DNA of 14,632 nucleotides from a bacterium (GTDB lineage Bacteria > Bacillota_I > Bacilli_A > Acholeplasmatales > JAEDCM01): the NCBI GenBank assembly GCA_024695185.1, contig JAILIR010000026.1, forward strand, positions 1-14,632. Direction: 5' to 3'. Of the stretch, positions 3,971 to 14,632 are shown piece by piece (within the stretch, counting starts at the first letter, position 1; each line of letters starts with the position of its first letter). Position numbers and translations under genes: made by a program. Under the pieces are notes generated by a model. That model made no database searches. It was not told where the DNA came from and worked only from the letters and a program-made list of their open reading frames with translations.

Positions 3971-3995
3971 AGAAAAAAGCCAAAATTATTGGCTT
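3971..3995 (-). terminator. Intrinsic terminator of mutL-miaA
   Basis: Minus strand: AAGCCAA (3995-3989), loop TAATT, TTGGCTT (3983-3977), then a T-rich tract (TTTTCTTTTTT). A classic Rho-independent terminator. The miaA stop codon TAA (3996-3994) supplies the first two bases of the stem. Confidence 0.88.
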
Positions 3996-4854
3996 AATTT
4001 CTATAGAAGTTTTCAATTAATTCAATGCATTTATCAAGTGGATTGTCTAAAATATCAATCATGTGAGCATTCATTTGATTTTTAAACCATGTGATTTGTC
4101 TTTTAGCATAATGTCTTGTGTTTTTCTTTATTTCTTCTATGGCTGTAGCTAAATCATAAACTCCATCAAGATAATTATTTATCTCTCTATAACCTATTTG
4201 CATAGCTTTATAGCCTTCATTTCTTAGTGATTTTACTTCATCAATTAAGCCCATTTCAATCATCTTATCAACACGTCTATTAATCCTATCATATAATATA
4301 TCTCTATCTGCAGTAAGGCATATCATTAATATATCATATAACGGCTTATTCTTGCCATTTCTACTAGAAAGAATATTATTATTTTTTGCTTGAATATATG
4401 CTCTAATAACTCTTCTACGATTGAATGGATCTACTGTTGTATTTGGATCAATTTCTTTAAGCATTTCATATAGCTTAGAAGTCTCAACATCATCATATGA
4501 TGCATCCTCATCTAAATCTCTTTTATTATCATCAAACTCATAATCGTATAGAGCTGCTTTAACATATAAACCAGTACCACCAACAATTAGTGGTCTATCT
4601 ATTGCTTCTATTTTTTCTCTAACATCTTTTTGAAAATCACATACAGAATAATCTTTATCCAAATCAAGGAAATCAATTAAGTGATGTTTAATACCTTTAA
4701 AATCTTTTAGCTTTGCACTACCTATATCAAGCTTTTTATATACTTGTACTGAATCTCCATTTATTACTTCATTATTAAAAATTTTTGCTACTTCTAATGA
4801 AATATCACTCTTGCCAACACCTGTAGCTCCTACAATACATACTACTTTTTTCAT
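3994..4854 (-). CDS. miaA: tRNA dimethylallyltransferase
   Basis: Transfers a dimethylallyl group to N6 of A37 in tRNAs reading U-starting codons, the first step toward i6A/ms2i6A. Seen in 286 aa: P-loop GATGVGKS (9-16), the catalytic and substrate-binding region GDSVQVYKKLDIGSAK (33-48), HHLIDF, the VGGTGLYVKA motif (about 92-101), the NRRRVIRAY motif, and RQITWFKNQM near the C-terminus. Slightly shorter than the usual 300-320 aa but complete. ATG start directly abuts the mutL stop (TAG ATG), with AAGGA eight bases upstream inside mutL, so it is translationally coupled to mutL. The mutL-miaA order is common in bacteria. Because of the coupling, the nonsense codon in mutL could have polar effects on miaA. 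Confidence 0.96.
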   Translation of the reverse strand: MKKVVCIVGATGVGKSDISLEVAKIFNNEVINGDSVQVYKKLDIGSAKLKDFKGIKHHLIDFLDLDKDYSVCDFQKDVREKIEAIDRPLIVGGTGLYVKAALYDYEFDDNKRDLDEDASYDDVETSKLYEMLKEIDPNTTVDPFNRRRVIRAYIQAKNNNILSSRNGKNKPLYDILMICLTADRDILYDRINRRVDKMIEMGLIDEVKSLRNEGYKAMQIGYREINNYLDGVYDLATAIEEIKKNTRHYAKRQITWFKNQMNAHMIDILDNPLDKCIELIENFYRN

Positions 4855-6579
4855 CTACATAATCCTTAGGAATAGTTTTTCTATTTCTTTTTGTGTAATA
4901 GATATTATAGTAGGCCTACCATGTGGGCAAGTGAATGGATTCTTACATTCAGATAATTGCGCTAATAAGGCATTTATTTCATCTATTTCTAGATTTCTAT
5001 TTGCCTTAATAGCTCCTTTACAAGCTATTCTTTTAGCAAGCTCATCTCTAATCGATTTTAAATCAATGGTATTCTTTTCAACAATGTATTTAATCATTTC
5101 TTCTGTTGAAGTAACAGGGTCTCCTAAAATCCAAACTGGAACACTTCTAAGATATATACTACTATCACTAGCATCTTCTATAGTTATTCCAAGATTAGAA
5201 AAATTATCTATATGACTATCAATAAATATCTTTTCTGTTTTTGTTAGTTCTATAATTGATGGAATCAATAATTCTTGACTAATCTTTGATGGGTTTGTTA
5301 GTTCAACAATATATTTTTCATATCTAATTCTTTCAGCGGCAGCATGTTGATCCATTAAAAACAACCCTGTTTCATTTTGGAATATTAAATATGTTCCAGC
5401 ATACTGACCGATATATTCTAAGTATGGTAATTTTTTATCTAATTCAACACTATCTTCATTTAGGAAGCTTTGTTTTTCATACTCCATTTTTTCAATATAG
5501 TCATTAGCCTTTTCTTCTTGTTTAACTTCTACTTTGTTTTCTATATTATGTAATGTATTTATTGGTTTAGGTTCTATATCAATTTTAGGTATAACCATAT
5601 TCTTATTTAAGGTATTTTTAATTGTACTAGTTATTAATTCTTTCATTAAATCTTCACTAGATAATCTAACCTCTTTTTTGGTTGGATGCACATTAACATC
5701 TACAAGCATTGGATCTATTTTAATAAATACAACAGCAAGAGGATATCTACCAACAGGTATATAAGTATCATAGCCTTCGATGATAGAATTAATGATTCCA
5801 TAGTTTTTAACATCTCTACCATTAACTATTAGAGTAATGGCGCTTTTACGCGATTTATTAACTAATGGATGTGCAAGATAACATCTTATTTTTATACCAT
5901 TTTTTTCGTTTTCTACTTCCATCATATTTTTAATAGAATCAACTCCATATATGTTACCTATGATACTTTTCATGTTGTTGTTTCCATTAGTTTGAAGTAA
6001 TACTTTTTTGTTATTAATTAGTTTAAATCTAACTGTTGGATTAGATATAGCAAGCTTATCTACTACTTCGCATACATTAGCTAATTAAACATTTTCATTT
6101 TTCAAATATTTTAATCTTGCTGGAGTGTTAAAAAATAAATTGCATACAGTAACTTCAGTACCTTTGTTTAAAGAAATAATACCTTCATCCATTAATTTAG
6201 ATGCTCTAAGATGAATATAATAGCCAATAGATCCATCATTAGATTTTATTGTCATATCACTAACAGATGCAATACTAGGTAGTGCTTCACCTCTAAATCC
6301 TAAAGTACTAATTCTAAACAAATCATATTGGTTTTTGATTTTACTTGTTGCATGTCTTAAATAACTTATTTTAAGATCTTCTTTATCCATTCCTATTCCA
6401 TTATCAGTTACTTTAATTTCTCTAATACCAGAATCAACTAATTCAATAGTAATTTCACTTGATTTGGCATCAAGAGAGTTTTCAATTAGTTCTTTTACTA
6501 CAGATGATACTCTTTCAACTACCTCTCCAGCAGCAATCATATTGGATAAATGTTCATCAAGTTGTACTATCTTTGACAT
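4855..6579 (-). pseudogene. mutL: DNA mismatch repair protein MutL, interrupted by an in-frame TAA
   Basis: Mismatch-repair ATPase and latent endonuclease. The reading frame is one continuous MutL of 573 sense codons broken by TAA at 6085-6087 (codon 165). Before it: GHKL ATPase motifs E30/N34, DNGIGM (59-64), GFRGEAL (94-100) and NTPARLKYLK (151-160). After it, in the same frame: LANVCEVVDKLAISNP, which has no start codon, then the transducer lysine region NVHPTKKEVR, an Asn/Glu/Lys-rich linker, the endonuclease motif DQHAAAERIRYE (410-421) and CPHGRPT. No frameshift is needed. The stop falls where other MutL proteins have Glu (TEL in Bacillus subtilis), so a single G-to-T change in GAA explains it. 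An ATG at 5973 has only a weak ribosome site. Start ATG 6579 with GGAGTGAT upstream. Either a true nonsense mutation (mutator strain), a sequencing error, or read-through. If the call is wrong, this is an ordinary intact mutL. Confidence 0.9.
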
Positions 6580-14032: not shown

Positions 14033-14135
14033 GTTGGACTTCTATTCTCATAGATTCTAAGTTATAAAATAACTTAATGGGTATCCCAACCATGTGCCCA
14101 AAATGAATTTCTAGTCACCTTAATAGGTGTTCCTA
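14033..14135 (-). ncRNA. Candidate omega-RNA scaffold / right-end structures
   Basis: In the minus-strand RNA, after the tnpB stop, three hairpins occur: CACCT-ATTA-AGGTG (14129-14116), TGGG-ATA-CCCA (14088-14078) and TAAGTTAT-TTT-ATAACTTA (14076-14058). GTTGG (14090-14086) could also pair with CCAAC (14037-14033), closing the structure over the last hairpin. TnpB guide RNAs are known to derive from the 3' end of tnpB plus the right end, with the guide taken from DNA just outside. The RNA itself is inferred. Confidence 0.4.
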
Positions 14136-14632
14136 TTTTGTAGGCTTTCTTCCGAAGCTAGCCTCCGTACTATACATATTCAAATATTTAGCCATGCCAC
14201 GCTTATAAATGTTTATTGCTGCATTTAAATCTCTATCTATACTTAATCCACAAACAGGGCAAATAAATGTTTCTGATGATCTTGGATCATGGATTGAACC
14301 ACACACAGAACACATTTTACTTGATGGAAATAGGCGTTCAACAAAGATAAGCCTCTTATTATACATCTTGCATTTATATGTAAGCATTTCTCTAATCATA
14401 TAAAGAGATGATTCTATTATTTTTCTTCTTATCACTTTTGATTTTTGTTGCTGGACTAGTTCTTTTATGGATAAATCTTCCATAAAAACAACATCATAAT
14501 TTTTAACTAATTCAGTTGTTGCTTTATCCAAAGTATCCTTAATATAGTTTCTCTTATAAAGGTATAATTTTGTGATTCTTTTTTTCGTTTTATACCAATT
14601 GTTTGATTCTTTTGTTTTTTTACTTAATTCTT
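14133..14632 (-). CDS. tnpB: TnpB RNA-guided nuclease, C-terminal part (cut by window end)
   Basis: RNA-guided DNA endonuclease of IS200/IS605 elements. The frame stays open to the end of the window (about 166 codons visible, beginning ELSKKTKES), so the gene continues outside and the inner TTG at 14531 is not a true start. Seen: the helical stretch before RuvC-II, RuvC-II with its catalytic Glu in FMEDLSIKE, the zinc ribbon FPSSKMCSVCG...ICPVCG with four cysteines, and RuvC-III DRDLNAAINIYKRG with the catalytic Asp. These look intact; the first RuvC Asp and the N-terminal domain cannot be seen. The short tail ends GRKPTK. The downstream structured region may be its omega-RNA. Whether it is an active element depends on the unseen half. 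Confidence 0.9.
   Translation of the reverse strand, partial: ELSKKTKESNNWYKTKKRITKLYLYKRNYIKDTLDKATTELVKNYDVVFMEDLSIKELVQQQKSKVIRRKIIESSLYMIREMLTYKCKMYNKRLIFVERLFPSSKMCSVCGSIHDPRSSETFICPVCGLSIDRDLNAAINIYKRGMAKYLNMYSTEASFGRKPTK

Follow-up and report, generated by a model that had tools for sequence, protein, structure and literature searches.

Mutator strains of Escherichia coli with mutL lesions have been described from culture collections and evolution experiments (available text of PMC5793043). In the Escherich strain covered there, loss of mutL function arose in an otherwise normal genome through a deletion of two residues in a repeat, and the mutational spectrum is documented. A mutL variant was also found in a suspected within-patient mutator, according to the accessible part of PMC8407408. 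In Phytoplasma and Mycoplasmatales mismatch repair has been lost, with both genes absent across whole lineages (PMC7301438, available portion), and mycoplasmas, in which MutS and MutL are missing, mutate no faster than E. coli (PMC4007778, available portion). The accessible section of PMC7064181 contains nothing on mutL alleles. Both mutL mutators and the loss of mismatch repair in Mollicutes are already known. Isolated nonsense errors occur in draft metagenome assemblies as well.

We analysed a stretch of 14,632 nucleotides (the window; contig JAILIR010000026.1 of assembly GCA_024695185.1, Acholeplasmatales), in which mutL carries an in-frame stop codon. Like the Escherich strain, as presented in the text cited above, the window has what would be a loss-of-function mutL lesion in an otherwise normal genome, but here the lesion is a nonsense codon, found in one assembly and known from sequence alone. 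Like the Phytoplasma and Mycoplasmatales of the portion cited, it would represent a member of the related Mollicutes without MutL function; however, mutS of its genome is open and its mutL otherwise undecayed, whereas these lineages lack both genes. The locus also resembles an isolated nonsense error of a draft assembly, in that the assembly is fragmented and the stop, single and private, falls in a conserved gene, and no other such private stop was seen in the sampled contigs. The mutL stop is very probably a private, very young lesion of a single codon in an otherwise normal, conserved gene and not a genetic system.

Frame and domain matches identify the gene for the DNA mismatch repair endonuclease MutL at positions 4855-6579 (minus strand) as a single frame of 575 codons that contains just two stops, TAA at codon 165 (positions 6087-6085, minus strand) and TAG at codon 575. 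The preliminary description had reported a mutL interrupted by one in-frame TAA with both flanks intact, and this was borne out. The TAA is the only break in the gene, and with it the sequence does not have the continuous translatable frame of a MutL. The upstream piece of 164 aa (6085-6579, minus strand) corresponds to positions 1-162 of the NCBIfam model TIGR00585 MutL (E = 2.5e-73) and contains only the GHKL ATPase sub-domain (HATPase_c_3 / HATPase_c; E = 1.4e-13 for HATPase_c_3), that is, the N-terminal GHKL ATPase region of MutL. It is followed by 37 MutL-like sense codons between the TAA and the next in-frame ATG (5974-6084, minus strand). From the ATG at 5973 an open reading frame of 372 aa (4855-5973, minus strand), a possible restart piece, corresponds to TIGR00585 positions 203-362 and contains most of DNA_mis_repair (E = 8.4e-33; the second N-terminal sub-domain) and MutL_C (E = 2.1e-34; the dimerisation domain) with DQHAAAERIRYE, a stretch that we take to be the endonuclease motif. 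The HATPase, DNA_mis_repair and MutL_C matches thus confirm the proposed order, in which the ATPase-like piece comes first and the C-terminal domain belongs to the second piece. In the mRNA the stop is followed by UUA (context UAA-UUA).

The mutL TAG abuts the ATG of miaA (4854-4857, minus strand), and miaA extends over positions 3994-4854 on the same strand. Judged from this arrangement, mutL and miaA are likely to be translationally coupled. At the other end of the window (14133-14632, minus strand) lies an IS200/IS605-type TnpB that runs off the contig end; what is present is its C-terminal part, with a Cas12f1-like TNB domain.

A search of 5.8 billion proteins with the second piece returned, besides the window's own piece, two full-length MutL proteins of 574 aa (P0002 and P0003) that are 99% identical to it and evidently come from the same species, as far as protein identity can tell. 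The conspecific MutL matches the window with 99% identity over residues 1-574, with '1 TAA' inside the match; residue 165 is Glu in both conspecific proteins, and the 37 codons past the TAA encode residues identical to both and read as MutL, as had been stated. Both same-genus genomes likewise have Glu at codon 165. Altogether, Glu was found in 221 of 221 aligned MutL homologues (213 distinct), which agrees with the previous statement that the stop replaces a conserved Glu. This alignment combines 105 genome loci with 116 full-length database proteins (not counting the window's own, 119 were listed, of which three with less than 531 aa were left out); the Glu codon at the genome loci is GAA in 82 cases and GAG in 23, while the conspecific copies were compared as proteins. 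The invariant Glu together with the conspecific match across residues 1-574 places the interruption, on comparative grounds, beyond chance. A Glu codon in relatives, which the preliminary description had named as refuting its observation, was thus obtained; it shows only that the stop is private, but not whether a mutation or an assembly error made it. Among named records, those closest to the second piece are the metagenome-assembled genomes bacterium RUI193 (68% identity) and Acholeplasmatales bacterium RGIG10196 (70% identity; its contig name says yak rumen). The organism of the window is thus an uncultured relative of rumen Mollicutes.

In the order, a MutL match was obtained in 125 of 160 genomes, and among the matches listed an internal stop was present solely in the genome of the window; several of the remaining matches cover only part of the gene or are split, so that not all were read end to end. 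The neighbouring CNNM-like protein served as control gene and was found in 107 of 160 genomes (E <= 1e-60), with 0 of 107 broken. Three of these control genes have a TGA within the matched stretch, and TGA recoding was rejected for them because the TGA is located upstream of the likely start codon; no tRNA was found on these three loci.

That a functional split has turned the two halves into separate working proteins is highly improbable. In favour of such a split, both halves have recognisable domains. However, the cut falls within the ATPase half and not at the linker, 37 conserved MutL codons precede the next ATG, with only a weak GGA upstream of it, and the listed matches of the order hold no second MutL with an internal stop.

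A search with the first piece was restricted by length to short fragments, and the best 120 matches were examined. At the site of codon 165, 107 of them continue with Glu and 5 with another residue, and the remaining 8, including the window's own, end before the site or have a gap there. Apart from the window's own, only P0206 among these 120 ends just before the conserved Glu; it is a distant MutL fragment of 164 aa with 57% identity to the first piece, located on a contig of 1,112 bases, and from its sequence a stop and a contig edge are indistinguishable as the reason for its end. P0124, which has a similar length, diverges from MutL a few residues before the site. The window's own piece belongs to a cluster of 3 member sequences on 1 contig, and the protein searches with both pieces showed no second copy of this species' stop allele.

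The frame is open and conserved past the stop, as it would be if programmed or suppressor-mediated read-through of UAA tuned the amount of MutL. The preliminary description had listed programmed read-through among the causes, and this can be considered very unlikely: this residue is Glu in the two conspecific proteins as well as in both same-genus genomes, so the stop is not kept in relatives, and no UAA-reading anticodon was present among 22 tRNA matches in the 72%-complete genome. UAA suppression and read-through were rejected for these reasons. Recoding of TAA was rejected too, since long open reading frames here end most often in TAA (68 of 100 counted with a complete stop codon), in agreement with the earlier view that the codon is not recoded.

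The window is one of 248 contigs (C152) of a draft genome of 1,103,994 bases that is 72.19% complete. Besides the stop, its MutL differs from both conspecific proteins at residues 32, 343 and 459 (3 of 574); at residue 32 the window has Ile, where 51 of 52 near relatives have Val. The CNNM-like neighbour differs from both conspecifics at 2 of 448 residues. By this protein comparison the two genes change at similar rates and mutL shows no excess decay, as the preliminary description had held; an old mutL pseudogene was rejected for lack of excess amino-acid change.

Further lesions were searched for in a sample of 60 of the 248 contigs, 25 of which were fully masked. Including the window, 36 contigs with 219,172 unmasked bases (188,935 called coding) were scanned, about a fifth of the 72%-complete genome. 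The coding model reported read-through stops in the window alone, namely the mutL TAA and the abutting mutL/miaA junction. No other broken gene was seen in the 219,172 bases, in a scan that catches 35 of 60 planted stops, and 0 convincing frameshifts were found in the called coding bases, where the scan finds 59 of 60 planted single-base deletions (controls were placed in 60 of 96 eligible genes). The scan thus performs well on frameshifts but only fairly on stops, and additional broken genes may have escaped it. Frame switches were proposed at 28 places. At 27 of them the new frame has a start codon at most 60 bases from the old stop, and the remaining one is situated 20 bases into a segment. 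As a set the candidates look like ordinary neighbours or an edge effect of the segments; six of them, inspected more closely by eye, look like ordinary neighbouring genes. The same applies by eye to the same-frame neighbour pairs (8 of 98 adjacent pairs, one in the window). Neither wholesale decay of the assembly nor a long-standing mutator was seen in the sampled contigs.

These data bear on the two main candidates for the origin of the stop, an assembly error and a recent mutation, between which the odds are near even. If the consensus or assembly is wrong at one base, mutL is intact in the cells, and we give this explanation just short of an even chance. It fits a metagenome draft of 248 contigs and low completeness, the intact state of both other same-species copies and the lack of a second stop allele in the protein searches. 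Moreover, about 5% of random substitutions in mutL give a stop, so in a coding sample of roughly 190 kb an error rate of only about 1e-4 is enough to produce one. Against an error speaks that the 219 kb contain no other broken gene, although the scan missed 25 of 60 planted stops, and that the contig of the window is longer than all 60 sampled contigs, which gives no obvious sign of very thin coverage.

The stop could about equally well be discussed as a real, very recent nonsense mutation, which would define a MutL-null and possibly mutator sub-lineage of a repair-proficient species; we rate this a little below even. A clean substitution in a gene that is intact in conspecifics argues for such a mutation, and the E. 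coli mutL mutators and the suspected within-patient mutator provide precedents, as far as the accessible texts describe them (PMC5793043; PMC8407408). The missing mutator imprint (0 convincing frameshifts, no excess amino-acid change) speaks against it, but a very young allele would leave none. Of the mutator strain suggested in the preliminary description, a long-standing state is therefore not supported by the sampled part of the genome, whereas a very recent mutation remains compatible with it. A real MutL null need not be a mutator in any case, because of the mutation rates of mycoplasmas given in the available portion of PMC4007778. No new mechanism is needed for the stop, either way.

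The MutS frame of this genome is open, with 845 aa to the contig end. Only one MutL match was found in the genome, which is incomplete, and a second mutL covering the loss was rejected since this match is the sole one. Across the order, 124 of 160 genomes gave a MutS_I match. In G000, G001 and G002 (genus g1) the mutS and mutL matches are on separate contigs; in many other genomes of the order mutL and a MutS_I match share a contig, with the match about 2.2 kb upstream of where mutL starts, the spacing expected of adjacent genes. The listed genomes G077-G091 (genus g23; 15 in all) gave a match to neither MutL nor MutS_I, and beyond those listed, further genomes were without a match (15 for MutL, 16 for MutS_I). 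The g23 genomes are small (0.3-0.9 Mb), some of them consisting of one or two contigs and being >90% complete. Judged by these protein matches, the whole mismatch-repair pathway has apparently been lost in g23, inside the order.

In the assembled sequence, translation of mutL would end at codon 165, and the predicted product of 164 aa would have neither the dimerisation/endonuclease domain nor the second half of the ATPase region. If translation restarted at the ATG at 5973, 37 codons on, the resulting protein would be without the ATPase sub-domain. With either piece incomplete, the gene is not predicted to yield a working MutL, which would disable mismatch repair although mutS is apparently intact. 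This expectation of a null rests on established MutL biochemistry. We infer the loss of MutL function and any mutator state in this way, as we do the cause of the stop. The early stop might also lower the translation of miaA, whose start abuts the end of mutL and which may be coupled to it.

If the stop is an error, one base of a draft genome makes a repair-proficient species appear to be a mutator. A real stop would instead be a MutL-null allele from nature, found at a stage before further decay, in a class with mismatch-repair loss elsewhere. It is conceivable, if unlikely, that the window captures incipient loss of mismatch repair in an uncultured Mollicute of the rumen type, whose living sub-population would have an open mutS and a mutL inactivated only just now, in an order of which another genus has lost both; no evidence favours this reading over an assembly error. 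Should it be true, the order and tempo of repair loss would be observable in nature.
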